Shown here piece by piece: positions 22,085 to 36,597 of a DNA stretch of 42,061 nt. A program made the position numbers and the translations under genes. The stretch is from positions 1-42,061 of the IMG/VR virus record IMGVR_UViG_3300020442_003958. One strand, given 5' to 3'. The stretch's first letter is position 1; each line of letters opens with the position of its first letter. This DNA is from a virus. The notes beneath the pieces were generated by a model. It made no database searches, had not been told where the DNA came from, and was given only the letters and a program-made list of their open reading frames with translations.

Positions 22085-24751
22085 ATGGCAGAACGAACAA
22101 TTAGTCCAGCAGTTTTCACGAATGAAATCGATTCATCACTTCTTTCACAAGGAGTTTCAAATATAGGTGGAGCAGTTGTCGGTCCTTTTAACAGAGGTCC
22201 TGCATATGCACCAACCATCGTAACTTCAGCCGCAGAGTTAGAAGATTTATTTGGTACAGCAGATGGTGATTATTATCAACCATTTACAGCAAGTGAATAT
22301 TTACAACAACAAGGTGTAGTAACAATAGTACGAGTCGGATCACTTGGTGGATATGAGCAAAAAGATGCACTTATTATTAAAGCAACCGTAGAGTCAGTTG
22401 ATGACGAAAAGTATGAAGCATACTACGGATTAGAAAGTGGAAGTTGTCCAGTTGAAGTCGGTGACGATAGTGTTATCGGTGTCTTGGCAAATTCTTTGAT
22501 TGTATCTCCTGGTGGAGAGTCAATTGTTGATCTTAGTGGATTTCGTGGTTCTGAAATTGATCCTTTAACAGACGTTATGTTTTATTCCGAAACAGAAGAT
22601 GCAGACGGAAACTCAGTAGTAAGTTCAAATCTTCGCTCATCTCTTAAGTTAAGAACAACCGATGAAGACGGAGTTGTTCAAAACGTTGGAGATAAAGAAG
22701 ACGAAAACGGAAATGAAATTCCTAGTGATTATGCGTTCTCGTTAGATCCACGTGATCCTGATAGTTTGAATAACATTTTTGGACGTGCGGCTAAAAAGAA
22801 TGTAGAACCTGCATACTTTCATGCTTACTTTGAAAATGAGCAAGAAAGATTATACTCAAATGTATTTGCTGGTGTAACATATCGTTTAAGTTGCGACGTT
22901 GAAACTGCAATAGGAGCAGGCGAAACAATGCAATTCCAAAACACAATTCTTAACGCAGAAGGTGAAGAAGAAGTTGATTTGTCAACATTCGGTGAAGGAG
23001 GAGAGTTTGCTTGTCGTCCAGCAGTAACCCCATTTATTCAGTCCCAAGAAATCAGTGGACGTAGATACGACTTGTTTAGAGTTTATACTCGTAACATGGG
23101 AACAAGTGCAAATCGTGAAATCAAAATTGGTATATACAATATCAGAACTCCCGGTAGTATTTCTGGTTCTGATTATGGTACATTTAGTTTGGTTGTTCGT
23201 GGATTTCTTGATAACGACAAAACTCAAAATGTAATCGAGAATTATGATGCACTTACACTTGATCCAAATAGTCCTAATTTTGTAGCACGTGTAATTGGTG
23301 ATCGTTTCACAACAATTGATTCACGTGGTAAAGTAACAGAACACGGTGATTATGGAAACTCAAGTCGTTGGATTCGCATTGAAATGAATCCTGAAATGGT
23401 TGCACCTGCAAACGCAATGCCTTATGGTCATGGTTCATATATGTCACCTGTAGGTGGTCTTGAAGTTCCACAACCTCTTTTTAGTCATGTTTCTCAATAC
23501 GAAAGAAATCCTGGACGTTACTTCAACGGTGCAGTTTTCACAGAAGATACACCAGATGGTATTTTAGATATGCCACGTTCTCAAAAAGACACCCTTGAAC
23601 TTTTTGCTCCAATTCCTAATGATGCCGGAGAAGCAGGACTTGGATATTACATGGATCAACCTGGATCATATAAAGAAGAAGTCGACGGAGTAACTGAAGA
23701 ATTTGCAGTTAGTGCTATTGACACAAGTCCATCGGTTGCAGATGAAATTGAAACAAGTAAATTAAGAAGATTCTTGGTTGGTTTCCAACAAGGATTTGAT
23801 GGTCACGCACCAGGACATCCAATTAATACAGGAAAAGATATTACTCCTACGAATGTACAAGGTCTTGATTGTGCTGGAAGATTCTCATCCGGAACACAAG
23901 GATATATTCGTGCGTTTCAAGCATTGAGTAACCAAGACGAGTTTGATATTAACTTGCTTGTAACTCCTGGATTGAGTCTTGATCTTCATAGAACTGTAAT
24001 CAATCGTGGTGTTGATCTATGTGAAACACGTGAAGATTGTTTTTACATTCTTGATTGTGTAAGTGCTCATAATCAACCAGGTCGTGTAGATGATGCAGTT
24101 TCTCAAGCATCTACACTTGATTCAAACTATGCAGCCACATACTATCCTTGGGTTAAAATTATTGATCCGGCAACTAACCGTATCGTTCCTTATCCTCCAA
24201 GTTCATTAATGATGGCAGTATATGCTTCTAATGACCAACGTTCTGCTGAGTGGTTTGCTCCTGCCGGACTTAATCGTGGTGGAATCGAGTCAGCAGTATC
24301 TGTTATGGATCGTTTGAACTTTGCTGAAAGAGATACTCTTTATGAAGGTAAAGTTAATCCAATCGCTGCGTTTCCTGGTCAAGGTATAGTTGCTTTCGGT
24401 CAGAAAACATTGCAAAGAAATGCAAGTGCTTTAGACAGAATTAATGTAAGACGTCTTCTTATCAATCTTAAGAAGTTCATTGCAAGTTCTGCACGATTCT
24501 TAATTTTCGAGCAAAATGTAACTGCAACTCGTAATCGTTTCTTGGGTATCGTTAATCCTTATCTTGAAAATGTACAACAAAGACTTGGATTATATGCTTT
24601 CCGTGTAATCATGGACGATAGTAATAATACTGCTGACATGATTGACAGAAACATTATGTACGGACAGATTTTCATCCAACCTGCACGTTCAGTTGAGTAT
24701 ATCGTACTTGACTTCAACGTTCAGTCAACTGGAGCATCATTTGGTGCATAA
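22085..24751 (+). CDS. 18: Tail sheath protein (gp18-like)
   Basis: 888 residues, with AGGAG 11-15 nt before the ATG. The N-terminus (ISPAVFTNEID, then VGPFNRGPAY and EYLQQQGVVTIVRVG) is typical of contractile sheaths. The C-terminal core is also clear: PGLS...ETREDCFYILDC, YYPWVKI, APAGLNRGGIE, NPIAAFPGQGIVAFGQKTL, NVRRLLINLKKFI, and DMIDRNIMYGQIFIQPARSVEYIVLDF. It is about 230 residues longer than T4 gp18. The extra length lies in residues 110-430, which hold surface-exposed protease-like-barrel or Ig-like insert domains in this family. A strong terminator follows. Codon use is enriched in fast codons, as for capsid and tube. Confidence 0.95.
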   Translation: MAERTISPAVFTNEIDSSLLSQGVSNIGGAVVGPFNRGPAYAPTIVTSAAELEDLFGTADGDYYQPFTASEYLQQQGVVTIVRVGSLGGYEQKDALIIKATVESVDDEKYEAYYGLESGSCPVEVGDDSVIGVLANSLIVSPGGESIVDLSGFRGSEIDPLTDVMFYSETEDADGNSVVSSNLRSSLKLRTTDEDGVVQNVGDKEDENGNEIPSDYAFSLDPRDPDSLNNIFGRAAKKNVEPAYFHAYFENEQERLYSNVFAGVTYRLSCDVETAIGAGETMQFQNTILNAEGEEEVDLSTFGEGGEFACRPAVTPFIQSQEISGRRYDLFRVYTRNMGTSANREIKIGIYNIRTPGSISGSDYGTFSLVVRGFLDNDKTQNVIENYDALTLDPNSPNFVARVIGDRFTTIDSRGKVTEHGDYGNSSRWIRIEMNPEMVAPANAMPYGHGSYMSPVGGLEVPQPLFSHVSQYERNPGRYFNGAVFTEDTPDGILDMPRSQKDTLELFAPIPNDAGEAGLGYYMDQPGSYKEEVDGVTEEFAVSAIDTSPSVADEIETSKLRRFLVGFQQGFDGHAPGHPINTGKDITPTNVQGLDCAGRFSSGTQGYIRAFQALSNQDEFDINLLVTPGLSLDLHRTVINRGVDLCETREDCFYILDCVSAHNQPGRVDDAVSQASTLDSNYAATYYPWVKIIDPATNRIVPYPPSSLMMAVYASNDQRSAEWFAPAGLNRGGIESAVSVMDRLNFAERDTLYEGKVNPIAAFPGQGIVAFGQKTLQRNASALDRINVRRLLINLKKFIASSARFLIFEQNVTATRNRFLGIVNPYLENVQQRLGLYAFRVIMDDSNNTADMIDRNIMYGQIFIQPARSVEYIVLDFNVQSTGASFGA

Positions 24752-25645: not shown

Positions 25646-26137
25646 ATGGCACAAGTAGTTGAAACACAGGAAATGTTCTTTACGGCATTTGAACCGAAGA
25701 CACAAAATCGTTTTATCATGTACATCGATGGTCTTCCATCTTATCTTATTAAAGCAACGGCACGTCCGAATCTTGCTATTGACGTTCAAACAATTGATCA
25801 TATCAATATTAAACGCAAACTTAGAGCAGGTAAAGCAGAATGGCAGGATATCTCAATCACACTTTACGATCCGGTAGTTCCAAGTGGAGCACAGGCTGCA
25901 ATGGAGTGGATTCGTCTTTCTCACGAATCTGTTACTGGAAGAAATGGTTATGCTGACTTCTACAAAAAGGATCTTACAATCAATGTTCTCGGTCCTGTTG
26001 GTGATTATGTTGAAGAGTGGACAATCAAAGGTGCGTTCGTGAATAACATGAATCCAGGTACACTTGATTGGTCAACCGGTGAATTCTCAACCGTTGAACT
26101 TACTCTTTCATACGATTACGCAATTCTCCAATACTAA
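25646..26137 (+). CDS. 19: Tail tube protein (gp19-like)
   Basis: 163 residues, the same length as T4 gp19. The fold markers are clear: FEPKTQNRFIMYIDGLPSYLIK at 15-37, KLRAGKAEWQDISITLYDPVVPSGAQAAMEWI, then ITLYDP-type and DYVEEWTIKGAFVNN segments and the final ELTLSYDYAILQY. It stacks in hexameric rings inside the sheath to form the DNA conduit. GGAG precedes the ATG at a good distance, and a strong terminator follows, so it is a single-gene transcript in keeping with high demand. Confidence 0.96.
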   Translation: MAQVVETQEMFFTAFEPKTQNRFIMYIDGLPSYLIKATARPNLAIDVQTIDHINIKRKLRAGKAEWQDISITLYDPVVPSGAQAAMEWIRLSHESVTGRNGYADFYKKDLTINVLGPVGDYVEEWTIKGAFVNNMNPGTLDWSTGEFSTVELTLSYDYAILQY

Positions 26138-26636: not shown

Positions 26637-27581
26637 ATGGCAAATGAAAATGATAAAGTAGACATTCCTCAGGAAGTAAGAGAGGCATTGCAACGCAACA
26701 ATAACGCATCAACTGCAAATCAAAGTGCAACAACACAAAGCACACGCACAGAAGCAACAAGTACGCAAAATACTGCTCCTTCTAATGCAAGTAAGTCAAC
26801 TGATGTTGTACAAAAAGTAGAATATCCTACTGAAGTTGTAGATTTACCAAGTCGTGGTTGGTTTTATGAACCAACTTCACCACTTGCATCTGGTAAGATT
26901 GATATTAAATACATGACTGCACGTGAAGAAGATATTCTTACGAGTCAAAATTTAATCAAAAAGGGAGTCGTTCTTGACAAACTTCTTGAAGCATTGATTG
27001 CAACACCAGGTGTTAATCTTGATGATGTATTAGTTGGTGATAAAAATGCGATTTTTATAGCAGCCAGAATTCTTGCTTACGGAAAAGATTATAACATTAA
27101 GTTTAAAGACCCATCCACAAACGAAGATGTACAAGATGTAATTGATTTATCAAAGATCGAACCAAAGGAATTTGATTTTGAAAATTACGAACGTGGTTCT
27201 AATTTGTTTGAGTTTGAACTTCCATTTTGCAAAAAGAAAGTACATTGGAGTTTGTTGTCTCATAAAGACGAACAAAACATTGATGCTGAACTTAAAGCAA
27301 TGAAGAAGTTTACAAAAAATAAAAATGAAACTAACGAAGTAACAACACGATTGAAATATGTTATCAAAGCAATTGATGGAAATGATGATCGTAATTCAAT
27401 CAAGCAATTTGTTGATCGTGAACTTCTTGCACGTGATAGTTTGGCATTTCGTGAGCATATCAAGGAAAATACTCCTGATTTAGACATGACGTTTAATTTT
27501 GAATCGGAAGATACTGGATATGAAGAAAGGATGACGATCCCTTTAGGGGTCGACTTTTTTTACCCTTCCACCCGAGTATAG
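26637..27581 (+). CDS. 26: gp26-like baseplate hub / tail assembly chaperone, short form
   Basis: 314 residues. A Ser/Thr/Asn-rich disordered N-terminus (to residue 60) precedes a T4_baseplate-type domain: VVDLPSRGWFYEP, GKIDIKYMTAREEDILTSQNLIKKG, DDVLVGDKNAIFIAARILAYGKDYNIK, then a helical domain. The usual zinc cysteines of relatives are not all present. It ends MTIPLGVDFFYPSTRV. T4 gp26 is a hub-associated protein. Here the gene lies between tube and tape measure, where tail assembly chaperones of the lambda G/GT kind sit. A second product made by frameshifting near its end is strongly suspected (next entry). AAAGG lies 12-16 nt before the ATG. Confidence 0.75.
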   Translation: MANENDKVDIPQEVREALQRNNNASTANQSATTQSTRTEATSTQNTAPSNASKSTDVVQKVEYPTEVVDLPSRGWFYEPTSPLASGKIDIKYMTAREEDILTSQNLIKKGVVLDKLLEALIATPGVNLDDVLVGDKNAIFIAARILAYGKDYNIKFKDPSTNEDVQDVIDLSKIEPKEFDFENYERGSNLFEFELPFCKKKVHWSLLSHKDEQNIDAELKAMKKFTKNKNETNEVTTRLKYVIKAIDGNDDRNSIKQFVDRELLARDSLAFREHIKENTPDLDMTFNFESEDTGYEERMTIPLGVDFFYPSTRV

Positions 27582-27813
27582 AATTCAACTTCACGAAGAA
27601 GTTTTTAATCTTGCTTATTATAGTCAAGGAGGATTTACACAAGATATTGTGTATAATCTACCGATATATCTTCGCAGATTTTATATCAGAAAACTCGTTG
27701 ACATACGCAATAAAGAAAACGAACAAGTGGAAAAAGCACAAGCATCTGCGAAGTCAAAATCTCCGAGTATGCCAAATAAACCTTCTATGCCAAGTAGGTC
27801 ATCTTTTAGATAG
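27547..27813 (+). CDS. 51: gp51-like frameshift extension of the gp26-like protein (+1/-2 frame, no start codon of its own)
   Basis: This frame opens after TAG at 27544-27546 and runs to TAG at 27811-27813, with no ATG, GTG or TTG until near its end. It encodes a convincing protein: PPEYRIQLHEEVFNLAYYSQ, then GFTQDIVYNLPIYLRRFYIRK, then a Lys/Glu helix and a Ser/Pro/Met tail (SMPNKPSMPSRSSFR). It resembles gp51-type hub-assembly proteins. It is +1 relative to the upstream gene; the two frames overlap at 27547-27581, which contains a run of seven T (27555-27561). A +1 or -2 slip there would fuse it to the first 308 codons of the gp26-like protein, giving about 391 residues. An extra T from a sequencing error would look the same. 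Confidence 0.72.
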   Translation, partial: GSTFFTLPPEYRIQLHEEVFNLAYYSQGGFTQDIVYNLPIYLRRFYIRKLVDIRNKENEQVEKAQASAKSKSPSMPNKPSMPSRSSFR

Positions 27814-27846
27814 CATTAATTAGTTAATCATTTAACTTAATTTACA

Positions 27847-27880
27847 GAAGTCGTATATTTATCAATATATACGACTTTTT
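27847..27880 (+). terminator. Intrinsic terminator containing an ATATTTAT element
   Basis: The 11-bp stem AAGTCGTATAT (27848-27858) pairs with ATATACGACTT (27867-27877), followed by T's. ATATTTAT at 27855-27862 lies in the stem-loop, and a GTATTTAT copy follows at 27881. Confidence 0.8.
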
Positions 27881-27909: not shown

Positions 27910-28167
27910 ATGAAAAATATAACAGAACAAGAACAACAATTAAATGAATTCATCGGTGGAATTGTAAACGCAATTTTTTCTGGAAAAGCAAGAAAAATTG
28001 CAAAAAGCAAATTAGAAGATCCTCGTTTGGCAAATTCTTTACAAAAGTATATTGATAATACTGAAAAATTTCGTCAAGAACTAAAAAGTATTGGGTATTC
28101 AAGTAAAGAAGATTTAAAAAAAGCATTAGCAAAAAATCCAAAAGTAAAAGACTATATCGAGTTTTAA
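27910..28167 (+). CDS. Small protein preceding the tape measure, 85 aa
   Basis: It begins MKNITEQEQQLNEFIGGIVNAIFSGKARKIAKSK: an acidic start, a hydrophobic Gly/Ile segment (too short and polar to be sure of a membrane span), and a basic stretch. The rest is helical (LKKALAKNPKVKDYIEF). An ATG at 27905 in another frame hits a stop at once, so 27910 is the start. Proteins with this 'EFIGGIVNAIF' onset are ones I recall next to tape-measure genes in marine phages. Function unknown. Confidence 0.6.
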   Translation: MKNITEQEQQLNEFIGGIVNAIFSGKARKIAKSKLEDPRLANSLQKYIDNTEKFRQELKSIGYSSKEDLKKALAKNPKVKDYIEF

Positions 28168-28170
28168 TAC

Positions 28171-31100
28171 ATGGACGATAAAGATGTAATAGATTTTGCT
28201 TCTAATCTTCAAAAATCAGTTGGAGATGGGTTACTTCCTACCCAAAACCAAATTAATGATGTTACTAAGCAAATATCTGAAAATCTAAGTTCAGGTGAAA
28301 TAGATTCTGCAATAAATATTGTAGGTAGTGATAAAGTAAAGGAGTTATCAACACAACTTACTGCATCTGCATCAATGTACGAAAAAATAAAAACCGAGGC
28401 AATGTCAGTTACACGTGAATTGGTAAAAGCAAATAATGAGTCAGAACTTGAAGAAAAAATAAAACAACAAACTGCTTCACTAAATCAAAGAATTGCAAAT
28501 ACACAAAGTGCAATAACAGAATCACAAAACAAACTTATGCCAAATTTGCAAAGTGAGTTAGCAACGGCACAAACAAAACTTTCTTTGATGGATAAAACAG
28601 ATGTAGGATATACCGATCAATTAAACAAAGTCAAAGAAATAGGTACAAGTATTGAACAAGAAAAATTAAGAGTTGCTGATATAATAGGTCAACAAGCAGG
28701 TCTCACTAAATTAAAAGACGAGGAGTTAGCAAAAGCAAGTGAATTACTAGATAAGGATAAAAGCATATATGATATGCGAATGGAAATTGCAAAAAACTCA
28801 CGTGAGTTGGTGGAATCTACGAAAGAACAACTTGATGCAACTGAAAAACTAGAACGTGTTCTTGAACGTATAGGAGATAATTTCAAGGAACTACTTGAAG
28901 ATAACAGAGATTTAATTAAGGAGTTTCATAGTGAAGTTGATTCTATGGCAGATGGAATTACAAATACACTTAAAAAAATACCTGTTATAGGAAACTTACT
29001 TGCCACAAGTATTCAAGGACCATTAAAAGAGGCAGCCAATAAAGTAAAAGAAGATTTTACGGCCGGATTTCTTAAAATGGCAGAGGCAGCTAGTAAACCG
29101 GGAGCAAATTTAGTTGATACATTAAAAGCAGGTTTACCCGAAGTGATGGGTGCAATCAAGGGTATAGGTTCAATGTTTATGTCAGTATTAACAGGTCCGG
29201 TTCTGATACTTGGTAGTATTGCTACATTGTTGTATTTGGCATTTTCAAGATTTCAAGCACTTGAAAAATCTACACAAGAATTCCGAAATGAACTTGGGTT
29301 GTCGTATGGAGCAATGGAGCAAATACAAAAAGATGCCATTTCAGTAAACAAAGAATTGGCATATTTTGGAGTAAGTATTGAAGAAGCAGTTGGATCAGCA
29401 AAAGCATTAGTAGAAGAATTTGGAAATGTTAATCATGTTACACGTGGACAAATAGAATTAGTTTCAAAGTTAAGTGCAGGATTAGGAATCAGTCAAGATG
29501 CAGCCGCAGGTGCTTTAGTTAAGTTTATGGAAATGGGAGCACCGAGTGATGAAGTAGCACAAAACTTAACACTTGCAACTGCCGAACTTAGTAATCTTGC
29601 TGGAGTTCCTGCTGGTAAAGTTATGGAAGATGTTGCAAACGCAAGTGAGGATGCAATATTAGCAATTGGTAATATGCCAAGAAATCTAGCAGCCGCAGCC
29701 GTTGAAGCAAGACGCATGGGAAGTAGTTTAGATTCTGCGGCCGCAACTGCAAGTCACTTACTTGATTTTGAAAGTAGTATTTCGTCGGAAATGAAATTGG
29801 CAAGTATGATGGGACGTCATGTTAATTTTCAAAAAATGCGACAACTTGCAATGGATGGTGATTTAGCAGGTATGCAAAAAGAGCAATTGCGTATCATGAA
29901 AGAAATGGGTGGATTTGATCGTATGAATCGTTTTCAAAAGCAAGCACTTGCAGAAGCACTTGGAACGAGTGTAGAAGAACTCACCAAGATGAATAAAATT
30001 GAAAAAGAAAATGCTGAGTTTGCACGTGAAAATCCAGAACTGGCTGCCGAGTATCAAAAGCAGTTGGAAGCACTTCGTGGTGGTGAAGAAAAAAGTTTAG
30101 CACAACAAGCAGAAGCAAGAATGAAGCAAGAAATTCAACAAGCAAAAATGAATGCTCTGCAAAATCAATTTAATCAAATGATGGTAGAAATGGGTGAAGC
30201 ATTATTACCTGTTATCAATGGATTAATGTCAGCACTTGTACCTATATTAAAAGTTATAGGATTTTTATTAAAATTAATCGTTGCACCATTTGCGTTAATA
30301 GGTGATTTAATTGCGGCCATTACAGGTGATACAAGTCGTTTGAAAGAACGTTTCAGTGACTTTGGAAGCACGGCAATAACAATCGTGGGATCACTTGGAG
30401 TTGCACTTGTGGTCGCAATGAAAATGGGTTCTACTTCCATGACAGGACTATTTTCTTCATTTGGAGATATGATAAAAGGAGCATTGAAAAAAGTAGCAGG
30501 ATTAGGTTCTGCAATCAAAACAGCATTTTCAGCAGGTGGTGCTACATCGGCGGCATCTGCTATTCCAGCACCAAGTGGAGTGGGTGCGTTTGGACGAGGT
30601 AGTCCGATTCAATCTGCAACACCAAAACCATCGGTGGCCGCAAATAAAGGACCCGGATTTGCTGATAAATTTGCTGAAATAGATACAAATGGTTTACTAA
30701 AAGCAGCCGGAGCATTAGCAATACTAGCAGGTGCTTTGTATGTGTCTGCAAAAGCATTTCAAGAATTTGGTGAAGTAACATGGGAAGGTGTAGTAAAAGG
30801 TTTAGTTGCAATAGGTTCGTTGGTATTAGTGTCCAAATTACTTAGCAAAGGAAGTGATGATATGATAAAGGGTGCGGCTGCAGTTGCGATTTTAGGTGCT
30901 TCACTTATTCCGGCCGCATTTGCTTTTCAAATGTTTGCTAATGTTCCATTTTCTGCCGTTATTCTTGGTATAACTGCACTTGGTGCTTTAGCAGTAGTTG
31001 CGGCCGTGGTAGGTAAATATTCTGTCATAATACTCGCAGGAGCAGGAGCATTGGCTGCGATTGCAGGTGGAATGCTTGTATTTGGATTAGCAGCCATGGC

Positions 31101-34100
31101 ATTTGCAATGGCAGTTAATATTATAGCATCAGCATTTGGTAAAGTAATAGAAACAATACAATCAATGTCAATGGGTGACATTGGAATGATATATGCACTT
31201 GGTTCTGCATTTGCATTTATTGGACTTATGTCTCCTTTATTAATATTAGCAGCCGTTTCAATTGGAGTACTTGGATTAGCATTAATTCCGTTTTCAATTG
31301 GACTACTTGCAGCTGGAATTGGTTTAACAATGTTCGCATTTGGTGTAAAACAACTTATTGATCATTCATCTGAATTACCTGCGGCTGCATTTAATTTTGG
31401 AATTTTCATTGGTATGATGGCAATGCTTGCTCCTACACTTGCAATAGCAGGATTAGGATTGGCCGCATTTGGCATTGCATTGATACCATTTGGAATTGGT
31501 ATTGCCTTGGCAGGAGCAGGAGTTGCATTATTTGGTTTTGGAATGAGTATGGTTATGGATACTATGAAAGATTTACCACAAGCAGCTGCAAGTCTTATGT
31601 TGTTTGCAGGTGCTATGGCATTAATTGCACCATTAACTCCTTTTATATTATTAACTGCGGGTGCATTTGCGATTCTTGGTGTTGCGTTAATACCATTAGC
31701 AGTTGCTATGCTTGCGTTTGGAGCAGGAGTTGCATTAGTGGGTCTTGGATTTCAAATGCTAAGTGATGCAAACGCACCTGAACTTCTTATTAATCTTGGA
31801 ATGGCAATATCTCTCGTTGGATTGATGTTACCTTTTATAGTACTTGGGGCAGTAGCAATTGGAATTATGACGGCCGCATTAATTCCGTTTTCCGTTGCTT
31901 TATTAGTAGCAGGTGTAGGAATGTCTTTGTTTGGATTGGGACTAAGTTTAACTGCGGATGCGTTAAATCAAATTACAGGTGAATCAATTGCGAATTTATT
32001 TGGAATAGCACTTGCAGTAATAGCATTGGGACCATTATTACCTCTTATTGCATTAGGAGCAATTAGTTTAACTTTAATGTCAAGTTCTCTTCTTACATTC
32101 GGTGCGGCCGTAATGGTTGTTGGTTTGGGACTTGAAGTTCTTGGTGGAGGTTTAGAATCTACGGTTGGATATTTAAAACAACTCGGTGAAATGGCAGGAC
32201 AAATCGGTGCGGCCGCAATTGCTATATACGCAGTATCAGGTGCATTAGCAAGTTTAGCATTTGCTCAAGTTGGTCAGGCTGTAGGTGGACTTGCAAGTTC
32301 TTTTGTAAACTTTGGTTCGGACATGGTAAATGCAGTAAATCCATTTCGTGATGCTTCCGAGGAAGCAGCCAAAGGTCCGTTTGATGAAATATTAAAACTT
32401 GCTCCGTATGCTAAAGATTTTGAAGGATTGGGTATGGGTATTGAAAAACTTGCAATCGGTACAACCGTTTTAAGTAAAATAGATACAGATGCACTTGATG
32501 CAGTCTCTGAATCAATAAGAAATTTAAGAAGAGCATTTTCTGGTGAAGAAGAAGCATCTATTTTAGGTTCATTGAAAAATACTGCATCTGGATTTATAGA
32601 TTCATTGAATCCCATGAAAGATGCAGAAGCAATGCCAATGGATGATATGTTTGGTCCTTTAACGGAATTATTTGCTTTTGCTGATCAAGCATTTATGTTA
32701 GGTGTAGGATTAGAAGCAGTTGCGAATGGACTAAGTCAAATATCAAATGTAGATATTGCACCAATTCAACAATTATCAACGGTATTACCTGAGTTGATGT
32801 CATCTATACTAGGTAATGCTCCAGCCGCAAAAGAACCTGAGGGATTTGCAAGTAGTTTATTCTCTGGATTTACAGGAATGTTTGGTGGAGATGACGATGA
32901 AGAAAAACCTCAAGCAGCCGCAGGAGGTGGAGGTGCAGAAATGTCACAAGCACCACTCAAGAAAATGGTTGATCAACTCAATGAATTCGCATCAATTTCA
33001 GATGAAACTCTTGGTGTATTGGATTTAATTTCATATTCTATGGCACGTCTTGCGATGGCACTTACAATGATTAACATGGAGCAAGTAGAGACCATCACTT
33101 CACTTGGAGAATCATTTTCACAAATCGGAAGAATATTACCATCGGTTCAACGAGGAACATCTGCTCTTAAAATGGTTGCTGATTCGGTTACCGGTGTAGA
33201 AGACTCAATGCAGTCGGCAGGACCTCATCTTAAAGTATTAACTGATTCTTTGAAGAAACTTTCCGACATGAATATTACTGCCGACGTTGGTGATGATCTC
33301 GGTGATGGACTTGAAGACTTAGGAGAAGGTCTTGAAGATTTTGTTGATTATATGGTAGACGCAGATTTAGACACAATGTCTAAAACACTACCTTCTAACC
33401 TAGAAGCAATAGGTAAGGCATTAAGTTCATTCGGAAGCATTCAGATTAATCCTGATTTGGGTGATCAACTTGAAGATTTTGGTGAAGGACTTGAAGACTT
33501 TATTGATTACATGGCAGATGCAGATTTAGCAACAATAAGTGATAGTTTGTCTGTAAATCTAAAAACACTAGGATCGGCAATTTCATCATTTTCAACATTA
33601 AATATAAATTCAGAACTCGGTGATATACTTGAGGATTTCGGTGAAGGACTTGAAGATTTTATTGATTACATGGATGATGCTGATTTGGCAACGATAAGTG
33701 CTAGTTTATCAACAAATTTAACTGCACTCGGAAACGCATTAAGTGGATTTGCAAATTTAAATATAAGCAGTGATCTTGGGGATCAACTTGATGATTTCGG
33801 TGAAGGACTTGAAGACTTTATTGATTATATGAATGATGCAGATTTAGCAACTGTTAGTGTAAGTTTATCTGCAAACTTAACTGCACTCGGTGATGCTTTG
33901 CGTGGATTTGCAAATTTAAATATAAGCAGTGATCTTGGGGATCAACTCGATGATTTCGGTGAAGGTCTTGAGGACTTTATTGATTACATGGACGATGCAG
34001 ACTTGGCAACTGTTAGTGTAAGTTTGTCAAAAAATTTGACTGATCTTGGCAATGCACTAAAAACTTTTAGCACATTGAACATTCAATCTGACATTGGTGA

Positions 34101-36597
34101 TAAACTAGAAGACTTTGGAGAAGGTCTTGAAGACTTTATTGATTATATGGACGATGCTGATCTGGCAGAAGTAAGTGCAAGTTTATCAAAAAATTTAACT
34201 GATCTTGGCAATGCACTAAAAACTTTTAGCACCTTGAACATTCAATCCGATATTGGTGATAAACTTGAGGATTTTGGTGAAGGACTAGAAGACTTTATTG
34301 ATTATATGGATGATGCTGATTTAGCAGAAGTAAGTGGAAGTTTAGCATCTAATTTATCTGCACTTGGTAACGCATTAAATACATTTAGCACACTTAATAT
34401 TCAATCTGACATTGGTGATAAACTTGAAGATTTTGGAGAAGGTCTTGAAGACTTTATTGATTATATGGATGATGCTGATTTAGCAGAAGTAAGTGGAAGT
34501 TTAGCATCTAATTTATCTGCACTTGGTAACGCATTAAATACATTTAGCACACTTAATATTCAATCCGATATAGGTGATAAACTAGAAGACTTCGGTGAAG
34601 GACTTGAAGACTTCATTGATTATATGTCCGATGCCGATTTAGCAGAAGTAAGTGGTGCATTGGCATCAAATTTAAGTGATCTTGGAAATGCTTTAAATAC
34701 ATTTAGCACACTTAATATTCAATCCGATATAGGTGATAAACTAGAAGACTTCGGTGAAGGACTTGAAGACTTCATTGATTATATGGACGATGCTGATCTT
34801 GCGAAAGTGAGTTCAAGTTTGGGTAAAAACTTATCAAATCTTGGTTCTGCACTTACTAAATTTTCAAGTCTAAATATTAAATCAAATATTGGGGATACAC
34901 TTGAAAGCTTTGGTGAAGGTCTTGAGGAGTTTATCGATTACTTAGATGATGATGAGTTAAGTGTAGTTACTGATCAATTTTCATCACAAATGATGTCATT
35001 AGGAAAAGCAATATCATCGTTGTCGGGACTAAATATATCAGAAGGTTTTGGTGCAACGGTAGAAAATTTAGGAAAAGGAATCGAGCAATTCTTGGATTAT
35101 CTTAATGATGACGAAATGGAAACCATGACACAAACATTTTCAAGTCAAATGCTTTCACTTTCAACTGCATTAAAATCACTATCAGGAATTCAGATAACAG
35201 AACAATTTGGGGAAAATCTTCAAAGTCTTGGTCATGGAATAGAAGAATTCTTGGATTATCTAAACGATGATGAAATGGAAACAATGACAGGTACCTTTGT
35301 AAACCAAATGGCATTATTATCCAATGCTCTCGTTTCATTATCAGGTATTAGTATATCATCAAATTTTGGAAATACCTTAACAAGTTTGGGTAAAGGGGTT
35401 GAACAATTTTCTGATTATTTAAATGACGGTGAAGGAAAAGATATAGGAAACTTTTTTAGATCAGCAGGATCATCATTAGTTCGATTTGTTGAAGGTGTAT
35501 CAAAGATTGCGAATGTAAAAGAAATCTCTTTAACCACAAGTTTACGAGATTTAAGTGAAGTTGCAAAAGGAATTGATCCAAGTGCAGTTTCAAATATAGA
35601 ACTCCTTGGGGTAAAATTAACAGAATCATTAAATGCGTTTGCTAATGTAGACGATCCAATTATACAAACACTAAAAGATATAAATGCAGAACTTTATTCA
35701 TTGTGTGAAAATATTAATAATTTGAATATTGAAAAAATTGAAGCACTTAAGCAAATGGGAACTGATATTGGTGGTTCGTCCGAAGGTGGGGGATTTTTAC
35801 CACCAAATGTAAATTCAGAAGCAGACATGATTCGCATGGGAATTGGAGATGGATCACCTGATATTATGCCATCACAAACATCTTCAATTGCAACTACAAC
35901 TACAAACACATCTTCTCTCGGCGAAAGTTTTGCAAATTTGACAGACGATTTTGAGAAACCTGAAGTTGATAAAAAATATGAATTATTTAAGAGAGCACAT
36001 AGTGATGCAAGCATGGAAGATTTACAATCTTACATAGGTACAAACAAATCACTAATTGAATCAAGTGAAGAAAACAGAAGAAGAGGTGAACCAACATATC
36101 TTGATGTAAATAAGTTCCAAATGGAAAATAATTACATGGAAAGAATGATGCAAGAAAAAGCACAAGAACAATTTCAGTCTTATGAAAATATTCAAGTTCC
36201 TGAAAAACCATTAAATGTTTTTGATTGGAAGCAAGATGAAAATGGAAATGTAGATTTTGGTGATCCAGGTATGATGAGCATATCTCCACAAGTTGCACCA
36301 GGAGAAGCATTTAATCCATTTTCAGTTGCTGAAACAGACGAAGGAAACGAGGAACTACAAACAGGAATCCAAATAGAACAACTTGCTCAATCAGTAGATA
36401 CTACAATACCACCGTCTGCTTCTACAATCATGACTGAATCCTCACCATCTAATGTCGTTGATACAAGAGAAGTAGCAGATGGAGCAATTGAGAAAAAATT
36501 AAGTGAGTTAATTGCTTTGATGAAGTCTGGAGGAATTGCAGTAAATCTAGATGGAAAGAAAGTAAGTACTGCAATAGCAAAAGTACAACCTGATTAA
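28171..36597 (+). CDS. Giant tape measure protein
   Basis: 2808 residues, the longest gene here and nearly five times T4 gp29 (590). In order: an N-terminal coiled coil (residues 1-260); a hydrophobic segment near 325-360 (MFMSVLTGPVLILGSIATLLYLAF); an Ala-rich helical core with LAGVPAGKVMEDVANASEDA; a second hydrophobic block near 679-720; an Ala/Gly/Ser linker; a large hydrophobic zone near 880-1350 with imperfect repeats centred on ALIPF; fourteen exact 53-residue acidic repeats (1709-2450); and a disordered C-terminus ending in GGIAVNLDGKKVSTAIAKV, a typical tape-measure end. Position after the tube and chaperone genes and the repeated helical design support the call. It sets tail length and is expelled before DNA. 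Nothing indicates a lytic domain. Confidence 0.88.
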   Translation: MDDKDVIDFASNLQKSVGDGLLPTQNQINDVTKQISENLSSGEIDSAINIVGSDKVKELSTQLTASASMYEKIKTEAMSVTRELVKANNESELEEKIKQQTASLNQRIANTQSAITESQNKLMPNLQSELATAQTKLSLMDKTDVGYTDQLNKVKEIGTSIEQEKLRVADIIGQQAGLTKLKDEELAKASELLDKDKSIYDMRMEIAKNSRELVESTKEQLDATEKLERVLERIGDNFKELLEDNRDLIKEFHSEVDSMADGITNTLKKIPVIGNLLATSIQGPLKEAANKVKEDFTAGFLKMAEAASKPGANLVDTLKAGLPEVMGAIKGIGSMFMSVLTGPVLILGSIATLLYLAFSRFQALEKSTQEFRNELGLSYGAMEQIQKDAISVNKELAYFGVSIEEAVGSAKALVEEFGNVNHVTRGQIELVSKLSAGLGISQDAAAGALVKFMEMGAPSDEVAQNLTLATAELSNLAGVPAGKVMEDVANASEDAILAIGNMPRNLAAAAVEARRMGSSLDSAAATASHLLDFESSISSEMKLASMMGRHVNFQKMRQLAMDGDLAGMQKEQLRIMKEMGGFDRMNRFQKQALAEALGTSVEELTKMNKIEKENAEFARENPELAAEYQKQLEALRGGEEKSLAQQAEARMKQEIQQAKMNALQNQFNQMMVEMGEALLPVINGLMSALVPILKVIGFLLKLIVAPFALIGDLIAAITGDTSRLKERFSDFGSTAITIVGSLGVALVVAMKMGSTSMTGLFSSFGDMIKGALKKVAGLGSAIKTAFSAGGATSAASAIPAPSGVGAFGRGSPIQSATPKPSVAANKGPGFADKFAEIDTNGLLKAAGALAILAGALYVSAKAFQEFGEVTWEGVVKGLVAIGSLVLVSKLLSKGSDDMIKGAAAVAILGASLIPAAFAFQMFANVPFSAVILGITALGALAVVAAVVGKYSVIILAGAGALAAIAGGMLVFGLAAMAFAMAVNIIASAFGKVIETIQSMSMGDIGMIYALGSAFAFIGLMSPLLILAAVSIGVLGLALIPFSIGLLAAGIGLTMFAFGVKQLIDHSSELPAAAFNFGIFIGMMAMLAPTLAIAGLGLAAFGIALIPFGIGIALAGAGVALFGFGMSMVMDTMKDLPQAAASLMLFAGAMALIAPLTPFILLTAGAFAILGVALIPLAVAMLAFGAGVALVGLGFQMLSDANAPELLINLGMAISLVGLMLPFIVLGAVAIGIMTAALIPFSVALLVAGVGMSLFGLGLSLTADALNQITGESIANLFGIALAVIALGPLLPLIALGAISLTLMSSSLLTFGAAVMVVGLGLEVLGGGLESTVGYLKQLGEMAGQIGAAAIAIYAVSGALASLAFAQVGQAVGGLASSFVNFGSDMVNAVNPFRDASEEAAKGPFDEILKLAPYAKDFEGLGMGIEKLAIGTTVLSKIDTDALDAVSESIRNLRRAFSGEEEASILGSLKNTASGFIDSLNPMKDAEAMPMDDMFGPLTELFAFADQAFMLGVGLEAVANGLSQISNVDIAPIQQLSTVLPELMSSILGNAPAAKEPEGFASSLFSGFTGMFGGDDDEEKPQAAAGGGGAEMSQAPLKKMVDQLNEFASISDETLGVLDLISYSMARLAMALTMINMEQVETITSLGESFSQIGRILPSVQRGTSALKMVADSVTGVEDSMQSAGPHLKVLTDSLKKLSDMNITADVGDDLGDGLEDLGEGLEDFVDYMVDADLDTMSKTLPSNLEAIGKALSSFGSIQINPDLGDQLEDFGEGLEDFIDYMADADLATISDSLSVNLKTLGSAISSFSTLNINSELGDILEDFGEGLEDFIDYMDDADLATISASLSTNLTALGNALSGFANLNISSDLGDQLDDFGEGLEDFIDYMNDADLATVSVSLSANLTALGDALRGFANLNISSDLGDQLDDFGEGLEDFIDYMDDADLATVSVSLSKNLTDLGNALKTFSTLNIQSDIGDKLEDFGEGLEDFIDYMDDADLAEVSASLSKNLTDLGNALKTFSTLNIQSDIGDKLEDFGEGLEDFIDYMDDADLAEVSGSLASNLSALGNALNTFSTLNIQSDIGDKLEDFGEGLEDFIDYMDDADLAEVSGSLASNLSALGNALNTFSTLNIQSDIGDKLEDFGEGLEDFIDYMSDADLAEVSGALASNLSDLGNALNTFSTLNIQSDIGDKLEDFGEGLEDFIDYMDDADLAKVSSSLGKNLSNLGSALTKFSSLNIKSNIGDTLESFGEGLEEFIDYLDDDELSVVTDQFSSQMMSLGKAISSLSGLNISEGFGATVENLGKGIEQFLDYLNDDEMETMTQTFSSQMLSLSTALKSLSGIQITEQFGENLQSLGHGIEEFLDYLNDDEMETMTGTFVNQMALLSNALVSLSGISISSNFGNTLTSLGKGVEQFSDYLNDGEGKDIGNFFRSAGSSLVRFVEGVSKIANVKEISLTTSLRDLSEVAKGIDPSAVSNIELLGVKLTESLNAFANVDDPIIQTLKDINAELYSLCENINNLNIEKIEALKQMGTDIGGSSEGGGFLPPNVNSEADMIRMGIGDGSPDIMPSQTSSIATTTTNTSSLGESFANLTDDFEKPEVDKKYELFKRAHSDASMEDLQSYIGTNKSLIESSEENRRRGEPTYLDVNKFQMENNYMERMMQEKAQEQFQSYENIQVPEKPLNVFDWKQDENGNVDFGDPGMMSISPQVAPGEAFNPFSVAETDEGNEELQTGIQIEQLAQSVDTTIPPSASTIMTESSPSNVVDTREVADGAIEKKLSELIALMKSGGIAVNLDGKKVSTAIAKVQPD
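33295..35520 (+). repeat. Fourteen tandem 159-bp (53-codon) repeats in the tape measure gene
   Basis: Each unit follows the pattern D-x-G-D-x-L-E-D-F-G-E-G-L-E-D-F-I-D-Y, then D-A-D-L, then L-x-x-L-G-x-A-L and S-x-L-N-I. Unit n starts at 33295 + 159(n-1), with no insertion or deletion across all fourteen. Units 5-10 are closest to one another (7 and 8 have identical protein); units 1 and 11-14 are diverged. This gradient fits expansion from the centre of the array. Confidence 0.92.

Follow-up and report, generated by a model that had tools for sequence, protein, structure and literature searches.

In phage lambda and its relatives, the tail-assembly chaperone gene lies between the genes for the tail tube and the tape measure, and it encodes a short form, gpG, together with a minor long form, gpGT, that is produced by −1 ribosomal frameshifting. 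Tail chaperones made by −1, −2 and +1 shifts have been reviewed, with HSTV-2 given as a probable +1 case (PMC5009743). The locus that we describe here occupies the same place as the lambda gene and, by inference, also gives rise to a short form and a minor frameshifted long form. It differs from lambda in the direction of the shift, and no sequence kinship to lambda surfaced among the results of the profile searches.

The second system of reference is T4, in which the short and long forms, gp26 and gp51, are two divergently transcribed genes and no frameshift is involved. Vladimirov et al. 2022 (Virology 566:9-15) are reported to have identified T4-like tail chaperones; their work is cited for T4-like phages in which a short gene is accompanied by a longer, fused one (PMC10885494) and for −1 signals at T-runs in the chaperone genes of such phages (PMC12846349). 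The record of phage Stupor labels gp26 and gp51 as tape measure chaperones.

The window examined here is the whole stretch of 42,061 nucleotides of viral DNA. A preliminary description of it had pointed to a hidden, gp51-like frame that follows a gp26-like gene and that would be reached by a +1 or −2 shift at a run of seven T residues (T7). We propose, with a probability of roughly 0.8, that this locus encodes a tail-assembly chaperone in a short (314 aa) and a long (391 aa) form by +1 ribosomal frameshifting, probably with the help of an RNA hairpin. The proposal rests on the pattern of slip codons, on a conserved +1 frame, on selection acting on the protein beyond the shift and on an upstream hairpin that is itself under selection.

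Results

The gene order in the window is sheath, an unassigned ORF, tube, a small ORF, the gp26-like gene, the hidden frame, an 85-aa ORF and tape measure (Table 1), and the pair thus lies between tube and tape measure, as first described, with small ORFs in the same interval. The gp26-like ORF passes the curated cut-off of PF12322 (31.5 bits against 24.5), and the related locus L002 scores 57.5 bits. Several other features of the region may be recorded here. The 85-aa ORF (27910-28167), which follows the hidden frame and precedes the tape measure gene, has no family match above cut-off, and a small ORF of Microcystis phage Mel-JY01 (L001, 3282-3497) occupies the same place. A 13-bp stem-loop followed by T residues is positioned just past the hidden frame (27846-27879); this terminator-like element precedes both the 85-aa ORF and the tape measure gene. 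Near-identical repeats (LNIQSDIGDKLEDFGEGLEDFIDYMDDADLAEVS...) occur in series in the C-terminal half of the tape measure protein.

Table 1. Features of the chaperone locus and its surroundings, in window coordinates.
Feature	Position	Strand	Evidence
Tail sheath (context)	22085..24751	+	PHROG 23, 9.4e-75
Tail tube protein (context)	25646..26137	+	PF06841, 3.4e-8; PHROG 4542, 3.9e-23
Short form, gp26-like / PF12322 tail assembly chaperone, 314 aa	26637..27581	+	ATG to TAG; Pfam T4_baseplate, 1.8e-7; PHROG 150, 4.7e-9
Putative RNA hairpin CGATCCC-TTTA-GGGGTCG, 7-bp stem, 2 nt upstream of the T-run	27535..27552	+	Terminator scan; MFE −10.8 kcal/mol (24 nt segment); selected across 168 loci
GGGG, 3′ arm of the hairpin, also Shine-Dalgarno-like	27546..27549	+	GGG at Gly codon in 61/132 vs 219/2610 elsewhere
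Whole open +1 frame, stop to stop, without a usable start	27547..27813	+	Sequence
T7 shift site TTT TTT T; predicted slip codon 27558-27560 (P site), with +1 re-pairing on 27559-27561	27555..27561	+	Sequence; codon constraint in 168 loci
Predicted C-terminal extension of the long form, 83 residues, +1 frame	27562..27813	+	Conservation in ~200 loci; dN/dS; profile match
Tape measure protein, 2808 aa (presumed client)	28171..36597	+	PHROG 4372 tail length tape measure, 3.6e-5; size; place

The two frames share 35 nt (27547-27581), and the T7 lies within this overlap, in agreement with the preliminary description. The same holds for the missing start codon, because the gp51 frame is devoid of ATG, GTG and TTG between 27547 and a point some 70 nt beyond the gp26 stop, and the whole domain is therefore without a possible start in the window. 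Fusion by a +1 shift would give a chain of 391 aa, 83 of which follow the shift. The −1 frame is also open in the window, by chance (27524-27823); the gp51 profile scores 115 in the +1 frame and 0 in the −1 frame. The two-gene arrangement of the T4 type is absent at this locus, which has a single gene with a +1 overlap.

An error of sequencing or assembly in the T count is excluded by the nearest kin. Four independent assemblies (L008-L011), at 69-92% identity, have the identical T7 and the identical break, and the +1 arrangement is found in about 200 loci; this answers the check on relatives that the preliminary description had proposed. Between the window and L008, dN/dS is 0.021 in the extension beyond the gp26 stop, and the differences at positions 1, 2 and 3 of the hidden-frame codons number 3, 3 and 31. 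These values rule out a chance or dead frame, and we conclude from the substitution pattern that the downstream frame is under selection at the protein level.

Scans of viral and genome contigs yielded 233 loci with a gp26-like ORF. The extension lies in the +1 frame in 200 of these and in the −1 frame in 22 (222 classifiable relatives), while five loci were undecided and six were cut off. In a few AT-rich loci, including the window, both frames are open, and the frame was assigned by the gp51 profile. Named records with the pair in the +1 relation are Microcystis phage Mel-JY01, LR756508 (uncultured phage), Flavobacterium phage immuto, Bacillus phage SP-15 and Streptococcus phage GXN1. The −1 arrangement is carried by cyanophages, Aeromonas phages Aeh1 and phiAS5, Vibrio phages K571 and EniLVp02, and phages of Rhizobium and Agrobacterium. 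These T4-like pairs resemble that of the window in that their frames overlap at a Phe-Phe T-run and in having a related extension, but their site is T_TTT_TTC or a close variant (TTT, TTG) and the extension lies in the −1 frame. In a quick tree with a midpoint root only, the +1 side is split from the −1/T4 side with a support of 99. A −1 group comprising LR756511 and its kin falls on the +1 side, and the direction of the shift has therefore probably changed at least twice, so far as the tree can tell. Such a position among +1 loci is held by the −1 loci L006 (1650-2923), L234, L235 and L236, which have T_TTT_TTC and a short form with a longer tail after the site.

For the main +1 clade, the codons at the shift site were analyzed in 168 distinct junctions, which read TTT TTT TGG in 103 loci, TTT TTT TAC in 33, TTT CTT TGG in 17 and TTC TTT TGG in seven, with a few others. 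Where the second codon specifies Phe, it is TTT in 150 of 150 cases, although TTC accounts for 29% of the Phe codons elsewhere in the same genes (521/1778). TTC does occur in the first codon (nine junctions), but never in the second. Of the 18 junctions with Leu in the second codon, 17 use CTT, one uses CTA and none uses TTA or TTG; TTA is the commonest Leu codon elsewhere, yet CTT, which is +1-shifty, is the only one of the six to recur at the site. CTT-T is the shift tetranucleotide of release factor 2. The TTC and CTT variants are scattered over several separate parts of the tree. The next Pro codon is CCT in 158 of the 168 junctions, as required for Leu in the +1 frame. On the SP-15-like side, TTT-C gives TTC. 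This pattern points to a +1 slip in which the tRNA in the P site re-pairs at the second codon (TTT-T or CTT-T).

An alternative hypothesis is that the ribosome moves back by two bases at the T-run, in the manner of phage Mu, which would lead to the same frame with one extra Phe. The T7 of the window permits such a re-pairing. However, TTC TTT TGG, TTC TTT TAC, TTC TTT CGT and TTT CTA TTC cannot re-pair at −2, and the arrangement is kept in the loci that have them. The inability of TTC TTT TGG and TTC TTT CGT to do so favors +1 over −2. We consider a −2 shift highly improbable and reject it on the codon data of the junctions; of the two directions offered in the preliminary description, only +1 is retained.

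In six SP-15-like loci (L218, L221, L222, L223, L227 and L228), the Phe-Phe run is absent (TTA TTT AAT CCC AGT and similar) and the +1 frame is kept. The shift codon may have moved to CCC-A in a few SP-15-like loci, judging by the codons found there. At −4 from the slip codon, the base that precedes the T-run, 143 of 168 loci have G or C and three have T, whereas codon usage predicts about 67 with T. Avoidance of a −1 heptamer was suggested as the reason by the loci in which T is found in three of 141 against 57 expected; it is ruled out by the remaining loci, since the preference holds where no heptamer can form (no T in 27).

One could also envision that the downstream protein is produced separately, by re-initiation or from a non-standard start, and is not fused to the gp26-like chain. 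Distant −1 relatives, for example Cygsa01, K469 and Mutine, lack a slippery heptamer and carry an ATG that coincides with the gp26 stop or lies close to it, and some in-frame ATG, GTG or TTG is present near the site in 82 of the 168 +1 loci, so that in about half of them the absence of a start is not in itself an argument. The preliminary description had held that relatives with their own start codon would speak against a frameshift. For the whole domain, no candidate ATG, GTG or TTG is present in the window and its nearest kin, and the window, L008 and others have no start before the conserved domain; it is only in the wider set that in-frame candidates near the site appear. Furthermore, the slip codon is synonymously constrained, and T4 gp51 is the fused form in one gene. 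Separate synthesis is, in our judgment, very unlikely.

A hairpin immediately upstream of the T-run is selected in the +1 clade, as judged from synonymous-codon shuffles. For the 24 nt before Phe-Phe, the mean z in the 168 loci was −1.56, compared with −0.10 in other segments (p 6e-22). When GC was matched and the last codon was held fixed, the hairpin z was −0.93 versus −0.13 (p 5e-11), and the signal persisted in 53 tree representatives (p 5e-6). The maximum of the folding signal is exactly at the site. A hairpin of −3 kcal/mol or lower was found in 147 of the 168 loci, and in most of these only 0-4 nt separate the end of the stem from the T-run. The pairing registers vary among the loci, and little covariation in a fixed register was apparent. 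The −1 relatives gave no detectable signal in a small sample (z −0.28, n=22). Structure downstream of the site is weak (mean z −0.72), which eliminates a strong downstream structure as the stimulator. Shine-Dalgarno-like tetramers are enriched upstream of the site (54% vs 19%), but the G4 of the window is the 3′ arm of the hairpin, and a Shine-Dalgarno sequence was not retained as the main stimulator; because of this double role, the two elements are inseparable by sequence alone.

The position of the hairpin raises the main rival to a ribosomal shift, namely that the nascent hairpin pushes RNA polymerase so that one U is dropped in some transcripts, from which normal translation would then give the long form. 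The stem ends just before the T-run in most loci, the hairpin and T-run of the window resemble an intrinsic terminator, the loss of one base leads exactly to the +1 frame, and there is a precedent in the Roseiflexus IS630 transposase, which is made by stem-loop-mediated transcriptional slippage at T5C5 (PMC5009743). The codon-specific substitutions argue against it. The first six T residues are broken in 27 of the 168 loci (TTT CTT in 17, TTC TTT in nine, TTT CTA in one) and the frame is nevertheless kept, as it is in SP-15-like loci with as little as TTC TTT CGT. The breaks obey codon rules and not run length: TTT TTC, with five T residues, never occurs, whereas TTC TTT T, with four, is present, and Leu is encoded by CTT, which leaves three T residues, but never by TTA or TTG, which would leave five. 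Transcriptional slippage therefore seems to us unlikely.

The extension of the window and that of T4 gp51 appear to be homologous by way of the −1 extensions. In profile comparisons, the +1 extension matched the −1 extension (95.8%, 7e-9) and the −1 extension matched the C-terminus of T4 gp51 (98.0%, 2e-13); the direct match of the +1 extension to T4 gp51 was weak (49.9%), and the −1 group is needed as a bridge. Between the +1 and −1 groups, the gp26 domains matched at 97.7%, and T4 gp26 matched T4 gp51 at 99.3%. PF12322 covers about 200 residues of T4 gp26 and likewise of T4 gp51, which is about 48 residues longer and thus corresponds to a paralogue of gp26 with an extension related to that of the window. 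The term gp51-like, given earlier to the hidden frame, applies to this C-terminal extension and not to gp51 as a whole. The extensions of two loci (L096, 5731-5997; L099, 5719-5982) weakly match PF20546 (DUF6760, function unknown), to 3e-5, below cut-off.

AlphaFold2 predicted the fused chain with a mean pLDDT of 85 and the extension as a separate helical domain. The best named viral fold matches include gp26-like baseplate hub proteins, for example that of SP-15. The fold match to the HK97 chaperone (HK97 gp13, 2OB9) was weak and non-significant (E 3.5, TM 0.48 by target length, probability 0.18).

Discussion

We propose the following course of events for the +1 frameshift. Most ribosomes would translate 26637-27581 and release the 314-aa short form. 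With tRNA-Phe in the P site on the TTT at 27558-27560, a fraction would slip one base forward to 27559-27561 and continue in the +1 frame to produce the 391-aa long form with its helical C-terminal extension. It would be the ribosome, and not RNA polymerase, that slips, and the hairpin may refold behind the ribosome and bias it forward. The two forms would act like lambda G and GT, with the short form coating the tape measure protein and the long form recruiting the tube.

Three described systems share elements of this arrangement. The +1 site of prfB (release factor 2) also has a YTT-T slip codon, but its A site holds a stop codon and it has a Shine-Dalgarno sequence 3 nt upstream, whereas the family of the window has a sense codon in the A site (TGG, TAC) and an upstream hairpin. 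The upstream attenuator hairpin of SARS-CoV, tested in yeast +1 constructs (Cho et al. 2013, PMC3639245), disfavors −1 and promotes +1 shifting, and it is similar in that it is placed just upstream and works most strongly within a few nucleotides. Those were constructs in eukaryotic systems, while the phage arrangement is natural and conserved and is known from sequence. The Roseiflexus IS630 element likewise has a hairpin directly before a slippage-prone run and omits one base; in the phage family, by contrast, the codon-wise constraints fit decoding and not realignment of the polymerase.

A more tentative proposal, to which we give a little less than an even chance, is that the direction of the shift switches within one orthologous chaperone gene, so that the Phe-Phe T-run directs +1 shifting when a hairpin is directly upstream and −1 shifting when it is not. 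The refolding hairpin would then be a native and widely conserved bacterial stimulator of +1 shifting.

The tie between T4 gp26/gp51 and the tail chaperones, which the preliminary description had drawn, was already published (Vladimirov et al. 2022, as cited in PMC10885494 and PMC12846349), and the −1 T-run signal in T4-like phages is likewise known through these citations. The +1 clade, the hairpin and the switch in direction look new: a literature search, with most subscription papers outside its reach, returned no description of a +1 clade or an upstream hairpin for the gp26/gp51 chaperone family.

In the relatives examined, the extension is truncated, labelled as a separate hypothetical protein or missing, which bears on annotation. 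The findings would add a large clade to the account of frameshifting in tail chaperones, with three solutions in one gene family: a +1 shift, a −1 shift and, in T4, two separate genes. The upstream hairpin also allows the question to be tested of whether RNA structure behind the ribosome sets the direction of frameshifting.
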